Shown here one piece after another: positions 5,361 through 29,643 of a DNA stretch of 30,729 nt. Both the position numbers and the translations under genes were made by a program. Within the stretch, counting starts at the first letter, position 1. The number at the start of each line of letters is the position of its first letter. This DNA is from a virus: the IMG/VR virus record IMGVR_UViG_3300027686_000021, positions 1 through 30,729 of that record; one strand, given 5' to 3'. The notes beneath the pieces were generated by a model. It was not told the origin of the DNA, did not search any database, and saw only the letters and a list, made by a program, of their open reading frames with translations.

Positions 5361-8300
5361 ATGCCTTACTCAGTACGATCTGAAGACGGGTATACTTTAA
5401 ACGGTATACCTGACAACCTAGAACCTAATGACCCTCAAGTACTTGCGGAACTAGACAAACTGCGTGCTAAGAATGCTGCCCCACAAAAAGTGGCGAAGCC
5501 TCGCCCTAGTAGAGCGTCGAGTAGAATAGCCGAAGAAAGCTCTGGTATTATAGGTAACATACTAAAAGGTTTCGGTTCTGGTGCGACAGGTATGTTGGAG
5601 TCCGCTGCTTTAGGTGCAGCTACCCTGCTAGAGGAAGAGGCGGAGCTAGAAGCTCGTAGCAAGATAAGAGAAGCATTTGATATAGACATGCTCAAAGGAG
5701 CAGATCAAGACTCTATAGCTTACAAATTAGCTTCGGGTATAGGTTCTATAGCCGCATTAGCCCCCGCCGCATTAGCTGGCCCTGCTGCTTTACCTGTGGC
5801 TGGTGTCGTAGCTGCTGGTGCTGGTGCTGGTGAGGCTAGTGAACGTGCGCGTGCGTACGGTGCTACCGAAGACGAACGTAATATAGCTGCCCTTAAAGGT
5901 ACGGCTATCGGCCTCACTGAGCTAGCTCCTTTTGGCAGGCTTGCTAAAGGTTTAAGTAGAGGGGCTAACAAAGCCTTTGACATGCCCAAAATAGATGCGG
6001 GTGTAGATAAGGTACTTGACCTGCTCGGCCCTAAAGCTGTAACAAGCATTAACTCTCGTATTAGAAACGTAGCTGGCACTGGCCTAGTAGAAGGCGCACA
6101 GGAAGGCGCGGCTGCTATTTTACAAAACCTCACAGAACAAGGCTATAACCCAGAACAAGTACTGGTAGACACTGGCGTTCTAGAAGAAGCCGCTATTGGC
6201 GGTGGTGCAGGTGCAATACTCCAAGCCCTAGCAGACGTTATAGGTGGTAGAAGGGGCGTAAGGCAAGGAACTGGCATCGAAGGTGACTCCGCCGAAACCG
6301 CTGGGGTGGAAGAAGCTACTCTCCCCGTCACTGAAGAGACCGATGCAGACGTTATTGCAAAAAGCAATGCCGAAGAAGCAGAAGCAGCTATACAAGAAAC
6401 AGAGGCAAAAGTAGTAACAGAAGCAGACTTAGAAGAAGTAACGTCGGAAGAGCCAAGGCTCGGTGCTACTGAAACTGAGACTGAGACTGAAGCTGCGACT
6501 GTCTCTTTTAATATCCTAGAAGAAAAGTCGGCGAATACTGACGTAGATGTAACTCAAGAGGTTACACAGAGAACCTCTCAGGGAGTTAGCCAAGAAGATG
6601 CTATTGCAGAGGTAAACACGTTAGTAGACGCCAAGATAGCGGAGCAAGCAGATGCTGGAGTTCTTGACGAGACAAGAAGTAGAGATAGCGTTCCTGTTGT
6701 TAAAGAAGCACCCCCAGAAACCGAAGTCATTACCACCGAATCTGAAACAGTTGTCGATGGAGGAGTGGACAACACTGAACAAGGCGCTACAGATACTGCT
6801 AAAGGAGAAAGCGGAAAGCCCTCTACACTAGCGCAGGCTATGAGCACGTTGAATGGCAAGCCTGTGACGTATCAAGCTGGCAGTAGAGACAGCGAAGCAG
6901 AGGTGGCTAGAAAGAGAGGTAAGAAAGAACTAACTGCTTTTGAGAAGGCGGAAGAGTTGAAAGTCTCTCAAGAGTTTAATCGTAGCCAGTCTGGTAAAGC
7001 GCCCATTATGAATAGGGCTAAGAATGTAGGAATAAACTACGACGCTGAAAAACAAAACCTAAGAAAGAACCAAAAAGTTTCTGCTAAAGAAGCTGACAAG
7101 CTAGTTACAGCCAAAGTAGAAGCCAAAGAAAAAGAAATTGTCGCTAAACAAAACACTATTAATGAAGTACTTGGTGTTTCTGCTATAGAAGCTGTTCCAC
7201 AAGATAGCCCTAACTATTCCACTGATGTGGAGACTATCACGCCTAAACTTGTTAAGGAGCTAGGTCTTACAGGTAGAAATAAAGTCTTTGGTGATAAACT
7301 TATATCAGCATACCAAGAGACAGGTTCTCCTGAAATAACGCGGGGAGACTTAGCAGCCGTACTTAGGCAAGCAGATGAGAATACTCAAGTTGTTTTTGAG
7401 AACGCTAAGGATACTATACTCGCTCGTGAAGTTAAGAAACCTGAATCTCAACAACTCGATGAAGTAGCTGTAGAGAAAGAAGCTCGTAAGTCTATCAACG
7501 GTATGTTAAGCCTAGACAACAAAGGTAAGGCGTACGTAAACAAGCACGTAGGCCAGCGTGCAAAACCCAAAGAAAAAGCTCCAGATACAACTCCGAAGAC
7601 GGATGACGTGCGTGATAAAGCTATCCTCAAGAAGGCGGGAAAAACTATAGGGTCAGAAAAAGGAGATGCTGCTGGTAAGCCTCTTACCCCCCAACAAATA
7701 ACTGAAAGGTCGCAGGAGGTAATTGACACAGAAGGATTAGAACAGTTTGTAGAACCTAACCTCCGCGTAGCCCCAAAAGACGAAACTTCAGATCAGAAAG
7801 TAGAACGACTACGTTTGTTAGCCAAAGAAGATCAAGCATTTGTTGACCAAATAGAAGACAGGTTAGCTGGGGCTACTGCAATTGACTTAGATATCACGCT
7901 ACTGCCTAAAAGCTACATAAACGAGTTAGACGGTGTGGTTACTGGAGACATACAGAAACTTGTTAGGAAAGGTGACCTTCGTGGGGCATTGATGGCGTTA
8001 AGTGGAGCTTCCACAGACTCCCGCGTTAAAAAGATTGCCCGTGTACTAGCTACAGCCGTAGGCGCTGCAAAGGTTAAGACTGCTGACGGCCCTGATTCGT
8101 TTGTGTCAAAGGATGGCACGCTATACATTGCCGAAGGGCCAGTGTACATACACACGTTACTGCATGAGGCCACTCACTCGGCAGTAAATAAAATACTAGA
8201 CAACAAAGGTAGCCCCGCAACTAGAAAACTAGAGCAGTTGTTCAAAGAAGTAAAACCTCAACTAGACTCCGCTTACGGCGCTAAAAACCTCAAAGAGTTT

Positions 8301-11300
8301 GTCTCTGAGGCCATGAGTAACTCTGCGTTCCAACAGAAACTGGCAGGTATGAACCCTGATGGCTCTCCTATTGGGGCGTTGGAGAGGTTCTTTAGAATCA
8401 TAACTAACTTTGTACGTGTTTTGTTAGGGGCTGACACTAAAACCACTGGCTCTGCATTGGATGCGACTGACCAAGCTATAATCTCCTTATTAGCCACATC
8501 TCCTGACACCCGTGGAGCAGGTAGTACTTACGCTAACGCTACTCGTGATGGTGTAAAGAAGATAATAAAAGATTTAGGGTTAATACAAAAAGGGTTCCCA
8601 GCCCCCACGCCTAAGTTCAAAAAGCAGTTTGGGGAGGACGGCGCTACGTGGTTAGACAGCGTTGAGTCACTAGTTACTAAGTTCGAAGCGTTGCAGTTAC
8701 TAGATACGCAGGCTCTTGGGGACGTAGCGGAAGCACGGGGCTTCGGAAACTTAGGTAACTTACTACACAAATCAATCCAAAGACTGCGTGGGGGCATGGA
8801 CGAATCGGACGTGTACGTAAGAGAGCGAGTGCAGACCGTTGCTCGTTGGGCGCAGAAAAACCCTGAGAAGAACAAAACGTTAGGTCAGTTAATTTATAGT
8901 AGAGAGTATGGAGCTACCATATACCAAGTAGACCCTACGCTAAAAGAAGATGCAGCAAAGAAAAAGTATGGTTCTGGCTCTGACAACTTTATGACGTGGA
9001 AAGAGCAGCGGAACGACTGGAATGCTCTAGGTAAAGACGGACAAGACACATACGTGTACCTACGAGATACGTACCGACAGCAGTATCAGAGCATGAAAGC
9101 TATTATCACAGGCCGTATGGAAGAGGTGGTAGGTAAGGAAGAGGCGGACAAGCTAACGACTAGTGTATTTGACAAGCTGTTCGACAAGAACACTCTAGAT
9201 GTCTACTTCCCACTGGTACGTAATGGCAAGTTTAAACTATCCTACGTACCTAAGAAGACGGGTCAAGTAACCCCTGACCGCGATAACTATGTGGTGGAGA
9301 TGTTTGAGAACGCGGCTGACCGTAACAAAGCTAAGAATGAAGCTATAGCTTTGGGTGCTACTGGGGTAGAAACCGTGGACGGAAATATATCTGCGAGTGA
9401 TTTCCGTAAGAACGCCCCTGATGGAGGGTTCGTGAACGAAGTGCTTACTATTCTACAAAAGAATGGCGTAAATAGTACCGTACAAGATGACGTTATGAAC
9501 TTGTTTATAGATTCATTGCCTGAAACTGCCCTCGCTAAAAGCCTTAAAGGACGAACAGGTATAGCGGGATACGACAGTGACCCTGTTGCGGCTATGAGAA
9601 GTAAGGCTTTCGATATAGGTCGCCAAGTACAGAGAATAAAGTACGCTGGAAACATACGTGCTATAACGTCTGAGATAGACAAGGTAGCTAGGAAACTGGA
9701 AGTAAACAACCCCAACAGCGGAACTACTAGTTCTATCGCCAAAGATATGTTGGCGCGAGCAGACTTTGCCGTCAATGGCGCGGGTAATAAGTTTGTGGAA
9801 GGAATAGTTAAAAACATTAACCAAGTGGCCTTTATCTACACTATTGGATTCAATGCTTCGTCCGCTATAGTTAACTTGAGTCAGTTACCTCTTGTGGTTG
9901 GCCCTATGTTAGGTGCTGAGTTTGGACATATTAAAGCAGGTAGGGCCATGAAGGAGGCTACGGCTTTGGTTAAGTCATCTGGTAATACGTTACAGTCTTA
10001 CTTTGACATGACTTTGAATAAAGCTACCGGAGAGTATGAGTACACCCTAAAGAAAGGGCTAGACCCCAAGATAGAAGCGGAGTTTAAAGACCTAGAGGTA
10101 TTGGTGACTATGGCTTCAGGGCGATCCTACCTAACGCAGTCGTATTTAGCTGACGCATCGGGGTTAGATGAAGGTACACAAACGTTCGAGTTCATTAAAA
10201 AGAAATTTGGTGTGGAAGCATCAGGACGTGTAAATCAGGGTAATGTAGGGGCTAAAATACTAAACAGCGTATCTTCCCTGTCGGCAATTATGTTTAATGC
10301 TGGAGAGAAGTTTAACCGACAGGTGACTTTGTTATCTGCCTACAAGCTGTCACTAGAAAACGTACAGACCAGAGAAGGTAAGAAAAAGAAAGAGGATCAG
10401 CTATCGACAACCGATATGCAGAAAGAAGCCTCTGAAGATGCTCTTTATAAGTCTATGGAGTATAACGGTGGTGCGGTACTAGAGACAGGTTCTAGAGTGT
10501 CTCAGCAGGGCTTTGGGCGTGTAGCGTTTATGTACAAGAACTACGGTTTTCGTATGTACACCACTATGTTCAAGACGGGTAAACAAGCCCTAGAACTTAG
10601 CTTTGCTCCTAAGAAGGGAGAGACTGCGGCACAGAAAGAAGAACGTATACGTCAGAGAAAGATAGCTTGGGGCAAGTTACGTGCTATCCACCTATCCTCT
10701 CTTTTGATAGCGGGTATACAAGGTATGCCTATATACGGCGCGGTAGCTTTGTTTATAGACCTTACTATGCTGGAAGATGACGAGGATGATGCAGATACCG
10801 TAATCCGCAAGTACTTTGGTGAAGGTTGGTTCAAAGGGCCAGCAGTAGACGCTCTGGGAGTAGACTTCTCTAAACGTGTTAGGTTGAATAGCCTATTGTT
10901 TGAGGCGAACAGGTATAGTAGAGACTCATCTCTGGAAGAAAGTATACTTTACCATATCGGTGGCCCCGCATTGAGTACTGGAAAGAGGATGGAGCGTGCG
11001 ATTAACGACTTCTCTGAGGGAAATATACAGCGTGGTATAGAGAGCGCCCTTCCCGCAGGACTCACAAACTTGTACAGGAATAGCCCACTAGGCAGGTTCC
11101 AACAGGACGGAGCTATGGAAACTCGACGCGGGGACGTTATATACGATGACTTAAATGCGGGAGACTTCTTTGCTGGTATGGTGGGCTTCCCTCCCACAGG
11201 CTACACGTTTGCTCAAGAGCAGTCGAACGTAGAGCAGCGTATAAACCGATCTGTAACTAAGGAAAGGTCTAAGTTGCTGAAAGAATACTACGTAGCACGT

Positions 11301-11525
11301 AGACAGGGTGACTACCCTGAGTCTAGAGAAATAAAGAAGAAAATGCGGGAGTTCGGTAAGAAACATCCAAGCGCACGAATAACGTACGATTCTTTGAAAC
11401 GGTCTTACAAAGGACACCTACGTACCACGGCTAAGATGCACAATGGCACTACGCTAAGTCCTATGATGAAGTCGGTGTTAGAGGCGGAACGACGAGAGTA
11501 CGATACTTCTAGTTTGTTTGACTAA
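5361..11525 (+). CDS. Giant polyvalent virion protein with zincin-like domain
   Basis: At 2054 aa this is the largest gene in the window; AAGGAG lies before its ATG. Residues about 120-200 form an Ala/Gly-rich hydrophobic segment, then a G-L-V-E-G-A-Q-E-G-A stretch. Residues about 300-480 are acidic and probably disordered. At H935-E936-A937-T938-H939 is an HExxH zinc-protease motif (LLHEATHSAVNKIL), followed by E979 and E983 in a KEFVSEAMSN helix that could supply the third zinc ligand, as in gluzincin-type proteases. The C-terminal region has a hydrophobic segment near residue 1777 (LSSLLIAGIQGMPIYGAVAL), an Asp/Glu cluster, and a fold-like stretch reminiscent of the large polyvalent-protein-associated domains of phage proteins (LPD38-like, from memory). 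The likely role is injection with the DNA, T7 gp16-like, with proteolysis of itself or a host target. The length is at the high end for such proteins. Confidence 0.8.
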   Translation: MPYSVRSEDGYTLNGIPDNLEPNDPQVLAELDKLRAKNAAPQKVAKPRPSRASSRIAEESSGIIGNILKGFGSGATGMLESAALGAATLLEEEAELEARSKIREAFDIDMLKGADQDSIAYKLASGIGSIAALAPAALAGPAALPVAGVVAAGAGAGEASERARAYGATEDERNIAALKGTAIGLTELAPFGRLAKGLSRGANKAFDMPKIDAGVDKVLDLLGPKAVTSINSRIRNVAGTGLVEGAQEGAAAILQNLTEQGYNPEQVLVDTGVLEEAAIGGGAGAILQALADVIGGRRGVRQGTGIEGDSAETAGVEEATLPVTEETDADVIAKSNAEEAEAAIQETEAKVVTEADLEEVTSEEPRLGATETETETEAATVSFNILEEKSANTDVDVTQEVTQRTSQGVSQEDAIAEVNTLVDAKIAEQADAGVLDETRSRDSVPVVKEAPPETEVITTESETVVDGGVDNTEQGATDTAKGESGKPSTLAQAMSTLNGKPVTYQAGSRDSEAEVARKRGKKELTAFEKAEELKVSQEFNRSQSGKAPIMNRAKNVGINYDAEKQNLRKNQKVSAKEADKLVTAKVEAKEKEIVAKQNTINEVLGVSAIEAVPQDSPNYSTDVETITPKLVKELGLTGRNKVFGDKLISAYQETGSPEITRGDLAAVLRQADENTQVVFENAKDTILAREVKKPESQQLDEVAVEKEARKSINGMLSLDNKGKAYVNKHVGQRAKPKEKAPDTTPKTDDVRDKAILKKAGKTIGSEKGDAAGKPLTPQQITERSQEVIDTEGLEQFVEPNLRVAPKDETSDQKVERLRLLAKEDQAFVDQIEDRLAGATAIDLDITLLPKSYINELDGVVTGDIQKLVRKGDLRGALMALSGASTDSRVKKIARVLATAVGAAKVKTADGPDSFVSKDGTLYIAEGPVYIHTLLHEATHSAVNKILDNKGSPATRKLEQLFKEVKPQLDSAYGAKNLKEFVSEAMSNSAFQQKLAGMNPDGSPIGALERFFRIITNFVRVLLGADTKTTGSALDATDQAIISLLATSPDTRGAGSTYANATRDGVKKIIKDLGLIQKGFPAPTPKFKKQFGEDGATWLDSVESLVTKFEALQLLDTQALGDVAEARGFGNLGNLLHKSIQRLRGGMDESDVYVRERVQTVARWAQKNPEKNKTLGQLIYSREYGATIYQVDPTLKEDAAKKKYGSGSDNFMTWKEQRNDWNALGKDGQDTYVYLRDTYRQQYQSMKAIITGRMEEVVGKEEADKLTTSVFDKLFDKNTLDVYFPLVRNGKFKLSYVPKKTGQVTPDRDNYVVEMFENAADRNKAKNEAIALGATGVETVDGNISASDFRKNAPDGGFVNEVLTILQKNGVNSTVQDDVMNLFIDSLPETALAKSLKGRTGIAGYDSDPVAAMRSKAFDIGRQVQRIKYAGNIRAITSEIDKVARKLEVNNPNSGTTSSIAKDMLARADFAVNGAGNKFVEGIVKNINQVAFIYTIGFNASSAIVNLSQLPLVVGPMLGAEFGHIKAGRAMKEATALVKSSGNTLQSYFDMTLNKATGEYEYTLKKGLDPKIEAEFKDLEVLVTMASGRSYLTQSYLADASGLDEGTQTFEFIKKKFGVEASGRVNQGNVGAKILNSVSSLSAIMFNAGEKFNRQVTLLSAYKLSLENVQTREGKKKKEDQLSTTDMQKEASEDALYKSMEYNGGAVLETGSRVSQQGFGRVAFMYKNYGFRMYTTMFKTGKQALELSFAPKKGETAAQKEERIRQRKIAWGKLRAIHLSSLLIAGIQGMPIYGAVALFIDLTMLEDDEDDADTVIRKYFGEGWFKGPAVDALGVDFSKRVRLNSLLFEANRYSRDSSLEESILYHIGGPALSTGKRMERAINDFSEGNIQRGIESALPAGLTNLYRNSPLGRFQQDGAMETRRGDVIYDDLNAGDFFAGMVGFPPTGYTFAQEQSNVEQRINRSVTKERSKLLKEYYVARRQGDYPESREIKKKMREFGKKHPSARITYDSLKRSYKGHLRTTAKMHNGTTLSPMMKSVLEAERREYDTSSLFD

Positions 11526-23005: not shown

Positions 23006-23299
23006 CTATTCTGTAGGGAATGTCCCTACAACCCAATACACGTTGGCGTCGATTCGCTTACCAACACCCTCTATCCAAGTCATTGGTGGGTCGTACTCAC
23101 ATATACTTAATACACTTAGCCGTCCTTGTAACCATTTAGGAACAGCCTCATTAGTAATATAGCCCCCCTCGAAGGGGGAGTCAACACATTCCATACCTAT
23201 ACATGTAACATTTAGTTCATTAGTATCAGTATGTACCTCAACGCGATACATAATGTCCTTTGGTGTACTATCGTAGCTAAACGTGTTATGCGTAGACAT
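23006..23299 (-). CDS. 97-aa protein paralogous to upstream gene's C-terminus
   Basis: It overlaps the end of the 321-aa gene by 14 nt and has no palindrome leader of its own, so it is probably made by coupled translation. Its residues about 51-92 (V-P-K-W-L-Q-G-R-L-S-V-L-S-I-C then GVGKR.DANVYWV) match the last 40 residues of the 321-aa protein (LPEEIEGKLSVLSICDV...VGRRAMDTVYYV). The N-terminal half is beta-like and has no match that I can see. The last residues, VGTFPTE, come from the palindromic repeat, so the gene was either truncated or extended by it. The function is unknown. Confidence 0.65.
   Translation of the reverse strand: MSTHNTFSYDSTPKDIMYRVEVHTDTNELNVTCIGMECVDSPFEGGYITNEAVPKWLQGRLSVLSICEYDPPMTWIEGVGKRIDANVYWVVGTFPTE
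23013..23029. repeat. Palindromic leader repeat, copy 1
   Basis: Plus strand GTAGGGAATGTCCCTAC: 7-bp perfect arms, loop ATG. It ends 17 nt before the 44-aa gene's ATG, with AGGAG in the spacer, and also encodes VGTFPT at the C-terminus of the 97-aa protein. Confidence 0.92.
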
Positions 23300-24251
23300 A
23301 ATATACCGTGTCCATAGCGCGACGACCTACGGTATCAACAAAGTCACCCACATCACAGATAGATAGTACCGACAACTTACCTTCTATTTCTTCGGGTAGG
23401 GTTTCTTGCCCATACGTACGAGTACCATGCACCTTGTCCACCATTCCCGAATACTCTCTAATACTTCGGGCTATTGACGTAACATCAGTAAGGCGTATAA
23501 CGTCATACTTTACCTCCTCTCTACGTACGTAAACACGTACGGCATACAGGTCTATACAGGTAGTTCCTATCGCGTCTTGAATCTTTATAGCTTCCCTTAC
23601 CTTGGTTACCTTGTCCTTGACATCATTACTTAGGAACGCGTGGTGAGTATCCACTAGGTGACAAAGCTCCTTCCACACCTCTGTCCGCTGTCCCTCTCTA
23701 ATCCCGTCAGTAGTCAACCCCAGTTCATTAAGGTTAACCCTTATAACGGAACGGTTACTGGCTGCCTGTTTGTTGATAGTATAGAGGGTATCTTCAAAGG
23801 TAGCCGCCACCACATCTTCGTGGCTTATAGGTAGAAGGTATCTGTTGGCGTTGCGAGTAGCTGTGGTTATATTCCCCGTCACCTTTAGTCGGCGTTGCAT
23901 CCTGTAGTCATCGTACTTGCCATTGGATATTTTGGGGGAGTATACGGCAAACTTTGAGTCTCCCTCACGCCCAACAGAGTAGTCTCCGTAACCTACCCAA
24001 CCCATGCAGAACACATCGGTGGGGTCATACACGTAGAACTTCCTAGCCGCCTCATGTCTACGAATAGTAGTAGCAAACTTACAGCCTCTAAAACCTACAC
24101 TCAGTAGATAGTCTAGTAAAAAAGACTCAAAACCACCTTGGCGGTTTGGGAACAGTGACCAATTAGGATCACGTAGGTCACTGTGGGTAAAAACAACAAA
24201 CTTTTCTTTATCTGTATCTAATTCCTGTACGCAGGGTAGGTCGCTATTCAT
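23286..24251 (-). CDS. Uncharacterised 321-aa protein of the accessory block
   Basis: Of two adjacent ATGs I chose the second (24251), because it gives CGGAG a 7-nt spacing and the palindrome a 17-nt spacing as in the sister genes. The protein has no membrane segment or signal peptide. It has an aromatic-rich N-terminal half (YGDYSVGREGDSKFAVYSPK, then RRLKVTGNI), a helical middle with TKVREAIKIQDAIGTT, and a C-terminal piece LSVLSIC repeated in the next gene. I see no nucleotide-binding or catalytic motif. Its position beside the VWA and MoxR genes suggests it is a substrate, adaptor or structural partner of that machine; this is inference. Confidence 0.65.
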   Translation of the reverse strand: MNSDLPCVQELDTDKEKFVVFTHSDLRDPNWSLFPNRQGGFESFLLDYLLSVGFRGCKFATTIRRHEAARKFYVYDPTDVFCMGWVGYGDYSVGREGDSKFAVYSPKISNGKYDDYRMQRRLKVTGNITTATRNANRYLLPISHEDVVAATFEDTLYTINKQAASNRSVIRVNLNELGLTTDGIREGQRTEVWKELCHLVDTHHAFLSNDVKDKVTKVREAIKIQDAIGTTCIDLYAVRVYVRREEVKYDVIRLTDVTSIARSIREYSGMVDKVHGTRTYGQETLPEEIEGKLSVLSICDVGDFVDTVGRRAMDTVYYVYA

Positions 24252-24268
24252 CATATTTCTCCGAGTTG

Positions 24269-24285
24269 GTAGGGAATGTCCCTAC
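24269..24285. repeat. Palindromic leader repeat, copy 2
   Basis: GTAGGGAATGTCCCTAC, ending 17 nt before the 321-aa gene's ATG; the minus-strand spacer begins CAACTCGGAG, the conserved flank with the RBS. It starts 2 nt after the stop of the 295-aa gene. Confidence 0.93.
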
Positions 24286-24287
24286 AG

Positions 24288-25175
24288 TTACTTTGTTTTG
24301 TACTCTTGGTACGAGTTAGTGAACGTACCCTTATGATTTACCCACGCATTGAACTTGGCGCGGAACTTCTTAGGGTCACTTGTTAGGCTGACGTTAATCA
24401 CCGAATTTATAGCCATACTATGCCAGTACCTGTTACCCATGCTATCTGCTAGTTCACATAGGAACGCGTGTACCATAGTGGTACGTTGCTCGTGTTGCTC
24501 TTCTACTAACATGTCTCTGAACGTGTCCCCACCCATACGACCAGCCTCCATCCTAGCCTCGCGGTTAGACTCCCAGTTCATAGTGCCCTCAAGTATGGGG
24601 GTCATAGTCCATGCCCAGTGTAGGTATTCATCGATAGCTTTTTTGTACGGTGCCTTGGCTTCTTTGTTAACACGTACACGTGTGACAGGTATAGGGTGTT
24701 CATCACTGGACAGTGTCCAAGGTGCGTAATGTCTGTGCCCCGCTACAGAACTGTTAGTCCTTCCTGCGGTAAACACTACAGGCTTGCGCTCATCCTTGGG
24801 TAGGTAGTAGCGGTTGCTTACTAGATGAAGTATGTACTGCTTGCCGTTGTCTACTATGAACCGCATACCCATAGGCATACACCGCTCAAGGAACGCGTAC
24901 CTACCATTGTGCGCGTAGTCACCTGTCTCGTTACGAAACCATACTGTGTCAGTGTTATCGTCATTACGAACCCAGACCACTGCGGCAGTGTGCGACTGTT
25001 CATGCTCCCCGCGATCTGATAACACGTACTGGTGTGGTGATACCTTGACGATACATTCCCACTTACGTCTGCGATCGCCGAGAGGCACTATGTTAGTACC
25101 CCTGATTGGTTTGGTGTTGTTGTACAAATGTTCCACGTGAGTGAAACTGTCTAGCCCATAATCATACATAGCCAT
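24288..25175 (-). CDS. Uncharacterised 295-aa protein coupled to the VWA gene
   Basis: Its ATG overlaps the VWA gene's stop (TAATG), so the two are probably translated together in a fixed ratio. The N-terminal half is beta-rich with many Trp, Tyr and His (WECIVKVSPHQYVLSDRGEHEQ, VVWVRN, DTVWFRNETGDYAHNG); the C-terminal half is helical (DEYLHWAWTMTPILEG, MVHAFLCELADSMGN) and ends in a basic tail. There is no membrane segment. I do not recognise the family. By analogy with MoxR/VWA systems, which carry variable partner proteins, it may be the client or adaptor of the VWA protein. Confidence 0.65.
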   Translation of the reverse strand: MAMYDYGLDSFTHVEHLYNNTKPIRGTNIVPLGDRRRKWECIVKVSPHQYVLSDRGEHEQSHTAAVVWVRNDDNTDTVWFRNETGDYAHNGRYAFLERCMPMGMRFIVDNGKQYILHLVSNRYYLPKDERKPVVFTAGRTNSSVAGHRHYAPWTLSSDEHPIPVTRVRVNKEAKAPYKKAIDEYLHWAWTMTPILEGTMNWESNREARMEAGRMGGDTFRDMLVEEQHEQRTTMVHAFLCELADSMGNRYWHSMAINSVINVSLTSDPKKFRAKFNAWVNHKGTFTNSYQEYKTK

Positions 25176-26425
25176 TACAAGTCCCTCGATTTAATATGTA
25201 CACGTTTACCTACAGTGGGGTTAGCGTTCTCGTTGTCCAAGATAGTCCACAGTACAGGGAACTTCCAGTCTCCCCAGCCCCCGTACAGGTACCCGTCAGT
25301 CAGTACGATAGCGGCTTGTGGACTAATACCGTTCTTAGCCATGTACTCAGTAAGGCACGTAACGTCTGTGCCTCCACCTCCACGCGGCTTGGTAGACTTG
25401 ACTAGCTGCGCCATCTCGTTCATCTCATAGGTTTCATCCCCTACCACAGAACTACCCCAGTACAGTACTCGTACCTTGCTGACCTTGACTGTTGCAAGTA
25501 TCTCTGCGACTGCGGATAACATCAAAGTAAGCTCCCGTTGCCCTATCGAACCTGATGTATCGGGGGCAAATACTAGCTCATCCACCCGTTCGCTATACCT
25601 AGAGGGCATATACACGTCCTGCCCTAGCAACCTGCGGTTGGGTCTAGCCCATGTAGAGTAATCGTTGCCCCTACACGTTGACTGTACAAAGTCACGTAGT
25701 ACATCACGCCAGTTGACCTTGGTCTTGAGTAGCTCATCTATGTCACGCGGTACATCGGCACCCATCTTACCAGCCGCCATTGCTCCTTGACGTATAGCTT
25801 CATCGATGTCACGTTCCAAGTCCTTGGCTTCTTCTTCCGATAGCTCCTGTGCCCCCTCCCAGTCGTGTTCGTCGAAGCCTGTTCCCTCGTCAGTAGGGGA
25901 TTCCCTACCATCACCGTCACCACCACCACCATCACCATCGTCCTCATCAGCAATCCTTCGCATGTCTTCGTCTAGGTCACGCGCATACTTGAGTATGTTG
26001 AACACCTGTGCGGTGTCCATGTCCCTATACTTCTCATCGACCAGCGCACCTTCCGGTAGTACCGCAAACCCGTCCGTGTTGGCATCCCGTATCTTTATGT
26101 TGATCACGTAGTCCATAGCCATGTTAGCCAGAGCAGCGTCTTCTTTCCATAGATGCTCCCATGTTCGTAGGTGGCGGTACAGCTTGTGGTAGTTCTCATG
26201 TAACACCACCCCACGTAATTCGGCATCGGTAAGGCCAGCCACAAACTTACGCCCGTACTTCTCATCCCTCCCGTTAGTACACGCTGTGGGTAAGTTGTCT
26301 TCGATGACCTTATCTCCGATCATTAGTACTGCTGCTAGGGCGGTGTACCTAGGCTCCCCTAGTATCTTAACGACTGCCTTGGTCAGTCGCTGTTCTTCTG
26401 TCAGTCCATCACTGTTTAGTAACAT
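25175..26425 (-). CDS. Metallopeptidase-like plus VWA protein (DUF2201 type)
   Basis: I chose ATG 26425 (416 aa) with AGGAG 7 nt before it; the in-frame ATG at 26449 lies inside the palindrome. The N-terminal half matches the putative metallopeptidase domain DUF2201_N, with VVLHENYHKLYRH carrying HExxH (H76, E77, H80). A long acidic Asp/Gly/Glu linker with DGDGGGGDGDG follows. The C-terminal half is a VWA domain with a full MIDAS: DTSGSIG (D289, S291, S293), the Thr of GGGGTDV and the Asp of LTDGY. Such proteins act with MoxR AAA+ ATPases, here encoded next upstream, to remodel or metallate protein clients. A palindrome copy (25893-25908) lies in the linker, where it encodes G-R-E-S-P-T. Confidence 0.85.
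   Translation of the reverse strand: MLLNSDGLTEEQRLTKAVVKILGEPRYTALAAVLMIGDKVIEDNLPTACTNGRDEKYGRKFVAGLTDAELRGVVLHENYHKLYRHLRTWEHLWKEDAALANMAMDYVINIKIRDANTDGFAVLPEGALVDEKYRDMDTAQVFNILKYARDLDEDMRRIADEDDGDGGGGDGDGRESPTDEGTGFDEHDWEGAQELSEEEAKDLERDIDEAIRQGAMAAGKMGADVPRDIDELLKTKVNWRDVLRDFVQSTCRGNDYSTWARPNRRLLGQDVYMPSRYSERVDELVFAPDTSGSIGQRELTLMLSAVAEILATVKVSKVRVLYWGSSVVGDETYEMNEMAQLVKSTKPRGGGGTDVTCLTEYMAKNGISPQAAIVLTDGYLYGGWGDWKFPVLWTILDNENANPTVGKRVHIKSRDL
25893..25908. repeat. Palindromic repeat variant inside the VWA gene
   Basis: GTAGGGGATTCCCTAC, 16 bp, one base shorter than the consensus. It lies in frame in the disordered acidic linker between the metallopeptidase-like and VWA domains, where an insertion would be tolerated. 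Confidence 0.75.
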
Positions 26426-26564
26426 TGCATTTCTCCTGTGTAGGGACATTCCCTACCATCTTGTGTACGTCTACCAACAACAGCCTAGCTTGCTTGCGCT
26501 CTCGTTTGGTAATGAGGCGGGTAAGGTAACCCCGCGTTGATCGTGTCTGGCGACTGTCTCTCAT
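26409..26564 (-). CDS. 51-aa basic protein coupled to the MoxR gene
   Basis: The ATG overlaps the MoxR gene's stop (ATGA) and the frame runs 51 codons into the start of the VWA gene (17-nt overlap). It is very basic (M-R-D-S-R-Q-T-R-S-T-R-G-Y, then ITKRERKQARLLLVDVHK). The palindrome at 26440-26456 is translated within it as VGNVPT near the C-terminus. There is no clear RBS of its own, so it would rely on coupling. The other coupled pairs in this block make it plausible but not certain. Confidence 0.42.
   Translation of the reverse strand: MRDSRQTRSTRGYLTRLITKRERKQARLLLVDVHKMVGNVPTQEKCNVTKQ
26440..26456. repeat. Palindromic leader repeat, copy 3
   Basis: GTAGGGACATTCCCTAC, perfect arms. It ends 14 nt (not 17) before the VWA gene's ATG, and the flank keeps only the RBS (ACAGGAG) of the usual CAACTCGGAG. 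It is translated in the 51-aa frame. Confidence 0.92.
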
Positions 26565-27658
26565 TTCTTGTCACTTGAGAACATGTACCCGTTATTCCTA
26601 CACCAATCAGTAAACCTGCTGTTACTCATAACAGCGTTGCGGTGAGGATACTTGGCGTGTCGCGCACCATGTACAAACAGACCTTGCGCTTCTGTATCTA
26701 GACGTGCCATGTATATCATCCAAGCATCTACCCATTCGCGGTTCATAGATTGTAGGGATCGATACACCACCATACATACAGTGGCGTCTTTCGAGGGTAT
26801 TGTGGCGTTGTGAGGGTCATCCTTAATAGATTGTAGACTAGGTAAGTCATCACCGAGCTTTACGAATGCCATAAGAGCCTTGGCACCGGACGCACCAATA
26901 GTACCTATGAGGGCATTGGTCAGTAGGTCATCATCTAAATGCTCACGCTCCAACAGAATATCCGATGCCGCGTGTAGGGATCGAGGCGTTACAAACTGAC
27001 TACCGGATGGTGCCTGTGGGTGGTATATGTACGGGTTGTCATCAGGGTTCTGCACATCAGAGAATGATTGAAACAGTGCAGGGTTGTCCTTAGCCCAGCC
27101 ACACAGTACAGGGTCTAGCCCATTGGGTATCGCAAAGTTAGCCAGCCATTCCATGTTAGCTTGCTTCTTGAGTCGTAACCTAGTGACGCGGTTACAGGCA
27201 TGGGCAGGTAGTGTGTCACCTAGATTCTCTGCACCTAGGTTAGAGGTAGCGAACACTATAGACTCAGGGTGTAGCGTGTAATCACCTATCTTACGCTCCA
27301 ACATCAGGCGCAGTAGCCCATTGAGTATCTCGCGCTCTGCCTTACCGACCTCATCGATCATCAGTATCAGCTTGACGCCTAGGTGTACACCCAGTTCTTC
27401 GTTGGTCAGGTACTTGACGTAGCCTGTGCCATCGTCCATATGTTGTATCTTAGGTATAGTTATATCGCCCGGAACCTTGGTCGTACAGTCAAAGTAACAG
27501 AGTATATGATCAGGATGCTTCTCACCTATAGCTGCTAGTGCGGACGATTTGCCCTCACCCATGTCACCTTCCATCACTACGGTGCGCTTGTGCCCTATCC
27601 TTGAGATTAGAGTCACGGCTTGGGGTATAGTCGATGCGTATATATGTTCTGCGTTCAT
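26561..27658 (-). CDS. MoxR-type AAA+ ATPase
   Basis: In this 365-aa protein Walker A is EGDMGEGKSSA (K37), Walker B is LILMIDEVGKAE (D102, E103), and sensor 1 lies in IVFATSNLG. The arrangement with Walker A very near the N-terminus and helical additions after the AAA+ core fits the MoxR/CobS group. The C-terminal 150 residues are helical and end in RFTDWCRNNGYMFSS. MoxR proteins work as hexamers with VWA partners, and the next gene encodes such a VWA protein, so the pair probably forms one machine. CobS-like annotations are common for phage members, but no cobalamin gene is present. CGGAG lies 7 nt before the ATG, with the palindrome leader 17 nt away. Confidence 0.88.
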   Translation of the reverse strand: MNAEHIYASTIPQAVTLISRIGHKRTVVMEGDMGEGKSSALAAIGEKHPDHILCYFDCTTKVPGDITIPKIQHMDDGTGYVKYLTNEELGVHLGVKLILMIDEVGKAEREILNGLLRLMLERKIGDYTLHPESIVFATSNLGAENLGDTLPAHACNRVTRLRLKKQANMEWLANFAIPNGLDPVLCGWAKDNPALFQSFSDVQNPDDNPYIYHPQAPSGSQFVTPRSLHAASDILLEREHLDDDLLTNALIGTIGASGAKALMAFVKLGDDLPSLQSIKDDPHNATIPSKDATVCMVVYRSLQSMNREWVDAWMIYMARLDTEAQGLFVHGARHAKYPHRNAVMSNSRFTDWCRNNGYMFSSDKK

Positions 27659-27675
27659 GTTATTTCTCCGAGTTG

Positions 27676-27692
27676 GTAGGGGATGTCCCTAC
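27676..27692. repeat. Palindromic leader repeat, copy 4 (one mismatch)
   Basis: GTAGGGGATGTCCCTAC; one arm mismatch. It ends 17 nt before the MoxR ATG with the full CAACTCGGAG flank, and starts 2 nt after the stop of the 312-aa gene. Confidence 0.92.
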
Positions 27693-27694
27693 GG

Positions 27695-28633
27695 TTATAG
27701 GTCAAGTGAAGGTAAGTTAGCGATAACGTCATCTATAGACGCTTTGGTTTCGGCACGCAGGGTGGGGGATGTTCTTAGTCCGTCTGCGGTAACACCACGA
27801 ACAGAGTCTTCTAGACTCCTGCGTATCGCCTCCTGCTTACTGTCTCCTGTCACGTTGCACGACTTTAGTAGGTCGATAACATCTAGCACGTTGTCTACCA
27901 GACTACCCTTGAACACTAGGGCACCTGTCGAAGGCGATACGTACTCACCTGCTTCTGGTTCACGTAGTCGCTCAGACATATTGGACACAGCTACGTGTAC
28001 ACGTTTCCACATGCTGTTCATAGCCCCGTCAAATCTGGCGTTGTGGTACTTGTTCATGTGGTCTTTGAGTACCTGCGTCTGCTCGTTACCCACGCTAATG
28101 CGGAAGTCGTTTGGGTCAGAGATAGAGAAGTATGCTATCCGAAACTCAAACTTGTCTGCTAGGGACTCAGTAGTCGGGTAGTCCGCTGCGTTGTGCAAGT
28201 CACCCAGTCGTGCATTCTCTTGAGCGCGATCCCAGTCGTACGCTCCAAGGAACTCTCCTTTCAATCGGTAGAACTCCCCCTGCATATCGGTCATCAACTC
28301 GTTGTACTTGAAATACGTTTCAGTAGGTAACATACGATGCCCCATGTCATTCCAAGGTAGGGTCATTGCGTAGTGTAGGTTGCGTGCGTTACTCGCTAGA
28401 GTATGAAGTGCCTTGAGAGAAGCACTATCACCCAGTAACACCTTACCGACTGTCGCGGTATCCTTGTTAGCGTTGTTGTCCACTACCACCTTGGCGGATG
28501 CCGCCTTGTCTTTCTTGGTATTTCTGCCCCACTTGCTGCACGTATGCTCTACTAGCATGGCAGACGAACTGATTGAGGGAAGGCTTATTTCTGGTGCTTC
28601 GTTTAGGTTTGATGCTTCGTTTAAGTTAGTCAT
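27695..28633 (-). CDS. Uncharacterised MoxR-associated protein, possibly DUF3150-like
   Basis: I chose ATG 28633 (312 aa) with CGGAG 7 nt before it; the ATG nine codons earlier lies in the palindrome. After a repeated N-terminal NLNEA...NLNEA pair, the protein has MLVEHTCSKWGRNTKKDKAA, HYAMTLPWNDMGHRMLPTETYFKY and a long helical body with DFRISVGNEQTQVLKDHMNKY, then a helical end. From memory this architecture resembles a family found beside MoxR and VWA genes in phages and bacteria (DUF3150-type), but I cannot confirm it. It would be the third subunit of the machine. No catalytic motif is visible. Confidence 0.7.
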   Translation of the reverse strand: MTNLNEASNLNEAPEISLPSISSSAMLVEHTCSKWGRNTKKDKAASAKVVVDNNANKDTATVGKVLLGDSASLKALHTLASNARNLHYAMTLPWNDMGHRMLPTETYFKYNELMTDMQGEFYRLKGEFLGAYDWDRAQENARLGDLHNAADYPTTESLADKFEFRIAYFSISDPNDFRISVGNEQTQVLKDHMNKYHNARFDGAMNSMWKRVHVAVSNMSERLREPEAGEYVSPSTGALVFKGSLVDNVLDVIDLLKSCNVTGDSKQEAIRRSLEDSVRGVTADGLRTSPTLRAETKASIDDVIANLPSLDL

Positions 28634-28634
28634 G

Positions 28635-28826
28635 TTATTGCTCCGAGTTGGTAGGGACATTCCCTACGATAGATGACGCGGCTGCGTCCGTTGATATAAG
28701 GTATGCACATAGGCAGACCATAATGATTGCGCCAACAGTCAACCCGCGAAGGTAACTTCTTTGGCACTGCTTGTTTAGCAGGTAGGCATCTGCGGCATTG
28801 ATAGCCTCACGTTGTAGGTCGTCCAT
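28635..28826 (-). CDS. 63-aa single-span membrane protein
   Basis: The ATG overlaps the upstream stop (TAATG). A polar helix (residues 1-26) leads to a hydrophobic span GLTVGAIIMVCLCAYLI (about 28-44) and a short tail whose last ten residues are encoded by the palindrome and the next gene's RBS. With one Arg/Lys-bearing side before the span, the N-terminus probably faces the cytoplasm. There is no signal peptidase site I would trust. It may anchor the accessory machine or act on the host membrane; unknown. Confidence 0.62.
   Translation of the reverse strand: MDDLQREAINAADAYLLNKQCQRSYLRGLTVGAIIMVCLCAYLISTDAAASSIVGNVPTNSEQ
28651..28667. repeat. Palindromic leader repeat, copy 5
   Basis: GTAGGGACATTCCCTAC, 17 nt before the 312-aa gene's ATG with the CAACTCGGAG flank. 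It and its flank also encode VGNVPTNSEQ, the last ten residues of the 63-aa protein. Confidence 0.93.
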
Positions 28827-29032
28827 TACTCACCCCCTAGTTCGACTATCATGCCGATCATCTGCTCGCGGTTAGTAGGGCATTCCCTACGGACTAGCCT
28901 ATCGCGCCAGCTATCTCTGCCTTGTACTTCTCGCTCCTTGCGGTCAAACATATCTTTATGAAGCTCAAACATTTCACGTAGTTGTTCATCTATGCCTTGC
29001 GCTACAGTCTCTTGCTCTGTTGGTATAGTCAT
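28826..29032 (-). CDS. First gene of the accessory block, 68 aa, unknown
   Basis: I chose ATG 29032 with CGGAG 7 nt before it; the ATG nine codons earlier lies in the palindrome. The protein is helical and charged (E-Q-L-R-E-M-F-E-L-H-K-D-M-F-D-R-K-E-R-E, then D-S-W-R-D-R-L-V-R), suited to a coiled coil or small regulator. A shortened palindrome copy (28875-28890) is in frame as E-C-P-T. It is the first gene after the promoter at 29114-29142, so it is likely to be expressed early and strongly. I see no known motif. Confidence 0.62.
   Translation of the reverse strand: MTIPTEQETVAQGIDEQLREMFELHKDMFDRKEREVQGRDSWRDRLVRRECPTNREQMIGMIVELGGE
28875..28890. repeat. Palindromic repeat variant inside the 68-aa gene
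   Basis: GTAGGGCATTCCCTAC, one base shorter than the consensus, in the coding region and not before a start. On the minus strand it is read in a different frame from the VGNVPT copies (giving E-C-P-T). Confidence 0.75.
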
Positions 29033-29049
29033 GGTATTGCTCCGAGTTG

Positions 29050-29066
29050 GTAGGGACATTCCCTAC
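29050..29066. repeat. Palindromic leader repeat, copy 6
   Basis: GTAGGGACATTCCCTAC, 17 nt before the 68-aa gene's ATG with the CAACTCGGAG flank. It lies downstream of the promoter, so it is transcribed and could fold as an RNA hairpin just before the RBS. Confidence 0.93.
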
Positions 29067-29113
29067 AGTAAAAGTAAAGGGACACAGCGTCCCCGCCCCG
29101 TAATGGGATTACC

Positions 29114-29142
29114 AGTATAACACACCTAGCTAAACATGTCAA
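29114..29142 (-). promoter_or_regulatory. Strong sigma70-type promoter for the leftward block
   Basis: TTGACA (29142-29137), a 17-nt spacer and TATACT (29119-29114) on the minus strand make a near-consensus promoter. The start point would be near 29107, giving a leader of about 75 nt before the 68-aa gene. It should be read by the host RNA polymerase and is the best promoter in the window. Confidence 0.85.
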
Positions 29143-29180
29143 GTTGTCTACTGTTATACCCAAACGTGACTAACGGTGTA

Positions 29181-29210
29181 TTGTTACACATTGTTACACA
29201 TTGTTACGTA
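29181..29210. repeat. 10-bp iterons TTGTTACACA
   Basis: TTGTTACACA occurs at 29181-29190 and 29191-29200, followed by TTGTTACGTA at 29201-29210: three units at exactly one helical turn. The GTTAC core reappears inverted at 29494-29544. Confidence 0.8.
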
Positions 29211-29442
29211 GGGTAGGCTTGTAAGTCCTTGATAACGCTCGAATGTTACAATGTTACGTTTTTGAGGGAAATATAGGGGGAAATAATTCGCTCTAACCCC
29301 CTCGAACGAATTTGTCACAGTGTGTAGCTTCGCCAATAAGACCCTATATATATTCAAAAAAATGTCACAAAGTAATGTATATTAAAAAGACACATAATTA
29401 ATCACTTTTAGCTAGGTTTTTTTGGGCATAAGGCTTCACTGC

Positions 29443-29480
29443 CCGACACGATCCGACACGATCCGACACGTTCCGATACT
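29443..29480. repeat. 10-bp tandem repeat CCGACACGAT
   Basis: Units at 29443-29452 and 29453-29462 are identical, 29463-29472 differs by one base (CCGACACGTT) and a partial unit (CCGATACT) follows. The one-turn period puts all units on one face of the helix. Confidence 0.82.
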
Positions 29481-29493
29481 GTGACATTTTTTT

Positions 29494-29544
29494 GTAACAT
29501 TGCATTACAAACACGTAACATTGCGGGGTAAAATGTAACATTGC
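29494..29544. repeat. Three GTAACATTGC boxes at two-turn spacing
   Basis: Identical boxes at 29494-29503, 29515-29524 and 29535-29544, with steps of 21 and 20 bp. Their complement, GCAATGTTAC, overlaps in sequence with the AATGTTAC and TTGTTAC units on the other side of the AT-rich stretch, so the two clusters face each other. Confidence 0.82.
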
Positions 29545-29548
29545 TCTG

Positions 29549-29565
29549 GTAGGGACATTCCCTAC
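29549..29565. repeat. Palindromic repeat, copy not at a gene start
   Basis: GTAGGGACATTCCCTAC with perfect arms in the non-coding region, 4 nt from the last GTAACATTGC box. No RBS or start codon follows on either strand. Confidence 0.9.
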
Positions 29566-29572
29566 GTCTGAC

Positions 29573-29643
29573 GCTCAACGCTAACAAGGAACTGGTCTTG
29601 GACGAGCGTCTGCCTAGATGCTCAACGCTAACAAGGAACTGGT
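29573..29643. repeat. 24-bp direct repeat, 47-bp period
   Basis: The same 24 bases, beginning GCTCAACGCTAACAAGG, lie at 29573-29596 and 29620-29643. Each copy is preceded by CGTCTG at a slightly different distance (8 and 13 nt), so the duplicated unit is larger and has one internal indel. An inverted pair GACGCTC/GAGCGTC (29570-29576, 29604-29610) overlaps it. Confidence 0.88.

Follow-up and report, generated by a model that had tools for sequence, protein, structure and literature searches.

The locus lies on the minus strand, at 23006-29032, of a 30,729-nucleotide stretch of an IMG/VR virus record (hereafter, the window). In order of transcription, it comprises g77, a 63-aa protein, DUF3150, MoxR, a zincin-like and VWA protein, g295, g322, and g97 (Table 1). 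All the parts named in the original prediction, made from the letters alone, occur where it had placed them, and on this strand, with the 63- and 77-aa proteins upstream and the 97-aa protein downstream. The lengths it had given, 312, 295, and 321 aa, are accurate, since they are those of the DUF3150, g295, and g322 proteins read from their likely starts.

Table 1. Features of the locus, with their coordinates in the window.
Feature	Coordinates	Strand	Description
g77	28826..29032	-	Small charged protein, encoded first in the block; likely ATG at 29032 (ORF list start 29059)
63-aa single-pass membrane-like protein	28635..28826	-	ORF call
DUF3150 protein	27695..28633	-	312 aa from the likely start; 321 aa from the ORF list start at 28660
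MoxR-type AAA+ ATPase	26561..27658	-	Walker A K37, Walker B D102-E103; phrog_1297 (4.4e-42)
VWA protein with N-terminal zincin-like domain	25175..26425	-	Start probably 26425 (ORF list start 26449)
g295	24288..25175	-	Alpha+beta; no consistent Pfam or PHROG match and no PDB fold match
g322	23286..24254	-	321 aa from the second Met; C-terminal domain common to g97
g97	23006..23299	-	Free-standing version of the C-terminal domain of g322
17-bp palindrome, seven copies	23013..29565		May serve the module as an operator or a leader hairpin

The window and part of a 58.2-kb contig are 99.96% identical. In this twin contig, the terminase, portal, and head genes share one strand, and the opposite strand carries a replication operon. 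A comparison of portal proteins relates the contig to Synechococcus phage MinM2, Pelagibacter phages HTVC023P and HTVC027P, Roseobacter phage CRP-902, and Caulobacter phage GB2A. The carriers of the module are a little-studied, mostly marine phage family. Elsewhere in the window, a tandem repeat of ~133 bp occupies the left end (1-276), inside a virion gene that encodes a 1996-aa protein in a near-identical contig and of which the window holds only a 400-aa part. A 2054-aa virion-side protein (5361-11525) has a large polyvalent-protein-associated domain (LPD39, 7e-9) and is perhaps injected.

The ATPase and the VWA protein

The MoxR ATPase has intact Walker motifs, as had been claimed for K37 and D102-E103. 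Walker A reads GDMGEGKS, and G31, G34, G36, K37, D102, and E103 are invariant in an alignment of 37 relatives. Compared with solved structures, the MoxR profile matches Midasin best (1e-15) and NorQ weakly. Midasin is an assembly remodeller.

The VWA protein is spanned over its whole length by two Pfam families, DUF2201_N (PF13203; 2.1e-25, 90.3 bits) and DUF2201 (PF09967; 2e-15, 57.5 bits), both of which exceed their curated cut-offs. It also matches phrog_1314 (1.6e-79). Its MIDAS is complete (D297, S299, S301, T361, and D385) and invariant in 33 VWA relatives, which bears out the intact MIDAS of the original prediction. The HExxH motif claimed for the same protein is present in the window (HENYH at residues 84-88, in a HENYH....H pattern) but is not strictly kept among relatives. 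Although H84, E85, H88, H93, N109, D113, and N117 are listed as invariant columns in the 33 relatives, such a list hides spacing, and direct reading of the alignment columns exposes an extra residue in five of them. The motif is HExxH in 28 of the 33 and HExxxH, as HEDEGH, in the other five (L010, L014, L015, L055, and L061). The MIDAS is intact in all five carriers of HEDEGH, of which the L010 protein is 65% identical to that of the window. In the motif columns of a VWA copy on a Variovorax plasmid, we found no zincin motif. Proteolysis is doubtful as the core activity, because the HExxH spacing is broken in 5/33 relatives while the MIDAS is kept in 33/33. The core function is probably remodelling rather than proteolysis.

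We reject the “HNH endonuclease” label that phrog_1314 and RefSeq attach to proteins of the N4 gp25 type. Their domains read as DUF2201 zincin-like plus VWA, and the label appears to be a mis-annotation.

Partner families and operon position

One of the partners for which no clear family had been seen, the 312-aa protein, is best read as a weak but syntenic DUF3150 member. In the window, it scores 21.6 bits against PF11348 (E 1.5e-4), below the curated gathering cut-off of 24.9; relatives at the same gene position score up to 28.5 bits, above the cut-off. A pairwise tblastn comparison aligns it with the protein annotated as DUF3150 in MinM2 (E 3e-13). The MinM2 protein matches the family profile at 2.3e-81 and is itself one row of that profile. 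A scan of genome contigs with DUF3150 returned only five loci, a class-wide family search 9 of 369 genomes, and we found no mention of the family in the open-access papers searched.

For g295 and g322, the absence of a clear family stands with respect to Pfam, PHROGs, and PDB folds. No consistent Pfam or PHROG family was found among the 35 members of g295 and 43 members of g322 that were scanned; stray matches of single members were counted as chance. Their AlphaFold2 models (pLDDT 89.8 for g295 and 88.7 for g322) have no fold match in the PDB by Foldseek (best E 0.64 and 0.24, respectively). Among viral predicted structures, the g322 model matched only four uncharacterised proteins of uncultured phages. 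A profile comparison found no homology between g295 and g322. The g97 protein, with no Pfam or PHROGs match, is paralogous to the g322 C-terminal domain (hhalign E 1.2e-13), and the two genes overlap or abut in 20 of 20 contigs. Where at least 1.5 kb of upstream sequence was available, g295 is accompanied by the VWA gene every time (66/66), although many of these cases are redundant contigs or were retrieved through the VWA gene itself. When g322 alone was the query, scans returned near-identical contigs only, because g322 changes too fast for the method. Thus, g295, g322, and g97 would be dedicated partner families outside known families.

The genes of the module are conserved and collinear in ~100 IMG/VR loci, and the module is therefore not a chance arrangement. 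Co-occurrence in other phages, proposed as a check on the original prediction, was examined with profiles built from the window genes. Of 23 non-redundant contigs that extend at least 4 kb to either side, 15 have the order DUF3150-MoxR-VWA-g295-g322-g97, and a further five miss only g295; the DUF3150 gene is present in 22. The head of the block is less widely shared: relatives of g77 occur only at the two closest loci (L011 and L013), and the 63-aa protein only in the near-identical contig. Downstream of the block and on the same strand, 31 non-redundant contigs carry genes for VRR-NUC (29/31), PolA (29/31), a RecB-like nuclease (27/31), and an SNF2 helicase (26/31). As these nuclease, polymerase, and helicase genes are co-directional with it, the block belongs to a replication-side operon, on the strand opposite to the virion genes. 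From this operon position only, we infer early expression.

We find that the genes of the operon differ in their rates of change. Median identity to the window is lowest in the partners (g322 27%, g295 36%, g97 38%, and DUF3150 40%), intermediate in MoxR and VWA (53-57%; VWA 57%), and highest in PolA, RecB, and SNF2 (63-78%; PolA 67%, SNF2 78%). The fastest change being in the partners fits adaptors that track a variable client, the simplest case being a client from the host. It may also reflect weak constraint.

The palindrome GTAGGG-N5-CCCTAC starts at 23013, 24269, 26440, 27676, 28651, 29050, and 29549. These seven copies are confined to the module region, against a chance expectation of 0.08, and related 16-mers occur at about 25892, 28874, and 30600. 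Five palindromes directly precede the ribosome-binding sites of g77, DUF3150, MoxR, VWA, and g322. L011 and L013 have palindromes at matching places, with the inner pair changed on both sides, from A-T to G-C, almost throughout, and with one copy inside the coding sequence of the VWA linker. Since both orientations of the palindrome centre occur, an operator bound by a protein and an RNA hairpin are equally likely. The element is missing from nearly all other loci and thus looks like a lineage-specific control element that lies outside the machine. Hairpins acting as N4-type promoters were considered and rejected, as searches of the giant virion proteins by motif and Pfam found no virion RNA polymerase. 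Upstream of the module, a long non-coding stretch (29100-29640) is dense in short repeats (GTAACATTG/TGTTAC and GTGTCGGATC) and is a possible replication or control region.

Candidate functions of the machine

We favor, with a probability of about 45%, a remodelling machine that is expressed early, has lineage-specific adaptors, and acts on a client that is most likely a host complex. The block would encode one ATP-powered protein remodeller, expressed early in infection together with the replication genes. An AAA+ ring of the MoxR protein would have the VWA protein as its co-chaperone, which would use its MIDAS metal to grip a carboxylate on the client. As in NorQD (PMC13036017), the VWA domain would insert a finger into the MoxR ring, and ATP hydrolysis would twist or pull the MIDAS-held client. 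The N-terminal zincin-like domain might clip the client, or merely bind it. DUF3150 could be a helical linker or adaptor, while g295, g322, and g97 would choose or hold the client as lineage-specific adaptors. Observed here are the gene content, the intact motifs, the conserved gene order, the position in the operon, the relative rates of change, and the lack of a detectable copy in phages with the same portal family; the physical assembly and the adaptor roles are inferred.

The client would most likely be a host protein complex, engaged for takeover or counter-defence, and less likely the phage's own replisome. That the block is a bespoke AAA+ machine whose own fast-evolving adaptors let it unfold or dismantle one specific host complex early, for either purpose, is a tentative proposal. 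Against the favored reading, phage replication proteins are nearly as plausible clients, and no known anti-defence gene was found beside the module proteins of the window.

The machine might instead act on the phage itself, remodelling its replication or recombination complex by loading, clearing, or recycling polymerase, SSB, recombinase, or nuclease. We consider this possible, if doubtful. It is consistent with the constant position of the block in the replication operon and with Midasin, an assembly remodeller, being the closest solved relative of the ATPase. It is also consistent with integrative-element-like loci at which a MoxR-DUF3150-VWA triad sits with Bet/RecT, YqaJ exonuclease, and primase, these neighbours being identified by reading the sequences. 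However, phages of the HTVC027P type replicate with no detectable copy. In addition, early host-takeover genes occupy the same operons in phages, and operon position therefore cannot separate a takeover role from a replication role.

Virion maturation, one of the roles that the original prediction had left open, is unlikely. A virion assembly or maturation chaperone has been proposed for the related pair of group 2.2 jumbo phages (PMC7824862). The N-terminal peptidase-like domain would suit such a role, and in roseophage RPP1 the homologues of gp24/gp25 have a structural module nearby (PMC4193335). In contrast, the module studied here is on the replication side and on the strand opposite to the virion genes. 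Eight phages of the same portal family have no match to the VWA profile, in a search that did match MinM2, Rhizobium TM3, N4, QDWS595, and rV5. Furthermore, phages with unrelated virions, and plasmids with no virion at all, carry the VWA gene or the triad. Together, these observations disfavor virion maturation.

Counter-defence or superinfection exclusion, aimed specifically at host immunity or competing elements, is less probable still. The partner proteins change fastest, and the core triad is spread across phages, plasmids, and integrative elements, as such a role might lead one to expect. However, no protein of the window matches any PADLOC model, and gene order and content are steadier than is usual in anti-defence islands.

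A CobS/CobT-like metal chelatase or metallocentre inserter, already doubted in the original prediction, is highly improbable: MoxR/VWA pairs such as NorQD do insert metal (PMC13036017), and the integrative-element relatives are CobS-like in sequence when read by eye, but there is no chelatase-family match, and no CobN or large subunit and no cobalamin gene was seen among the genes examined in the window and its 58-kb twin contig.

Thus, the original interpretation as a whole is partly supported. Host takeover, anti-defence, and a role in remodelling the replication complex of the phage itself are all candidate functions.

Comparison with known systems

The VWA protein matches 687 phage records, including Schitoviridae and rV5-type phages. 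The MoxR/VWA pair is already known in phages; what is new here is the set of dedicated partner families and the link to DUF3150. In Escherichia phage N4, gp24 and gp25 are middle genes and belong to the Schitoviridae core (PMC4193335). Like the window, N4 has an AAA ATPase followed by a DUF2201_N plus DUF2201 VWA protein with HExxH and DTSGS, in a middle-gene, replication-side region. Unlike N4, the window has a VWA protein in a separate tree clade, ~30% identical to its best matches in the phage collection. Profile searches of the N4 record found no DUF3150, g295, or g322, although searches of named phage records with g295 and g322 had no positive control, so that absence there is weak evidence. 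The main text of CRISPRi-ART gives no result for gp24/gp25 of N4.

Group 2.2 jumbo phages carry a MoxR-vWA-peptidase pair, for which Iyer and colleagues proposed virion assembly chaperoning (PMC7824862). It resembles the window in combining a MoxR ATPase with a VWA protein that has an N-terminal peptidase domain. In rV5_ev158, MoxR and VWA are both detected but lie kilobases apart, and a profile search found no DUF3150. The pair is not mentioned in the plasmid anti-defence paper or the paper on HTVC023P-type pelagiphages.

Plasmids of Rhodovastum, Variovorax, and Caballeronia carry MoxR-DUF3150-VWA triads, as does one Cloacimonadota contig. MinM2, which shares the portal family, has all three core genes, with MoxR preceding DUF3150. 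We did not detect g295, g322, or g97 beside the plasmid, integrative-element, or MinM2 triads. The two genes that follow VWA in MinM2, positioned like g295 and g322, are unrelated to them by profile comparison.

The vWA-MoxR ternary conflict systems carry a VMAP component (PMC7159879) and thus, like the window, combine MoxR and vWA with a further component. Pfam searches of the window partners recognised no VMAP or effector domain. NorQD, RavA-ViaA, and Midasin share the working principle proposed here, an AAA+ ring with a MIDAS VWA co-chaperone. For NorQD, remodelling is described as acting through pore engagement, with the MIDAS suggested as substrate binder (PMC13036017). These systems differ in their accessory domains and clients, and the window, unlike their settings, has no nor, frd, or ribosome-assembly genes.

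Genes of the N4 gp24/gp25 type are a family-wide core, present in hundreds of phages, with no assigned function and widely labelled “HNH endonuclease.” The block described here links them to DUF3150 and three partner families. Interactions, adaptors, and operon timing thereby become handles for a client search. Since plasmids and integrative elements also have the core triad, what is learned in one system may apply to the others.
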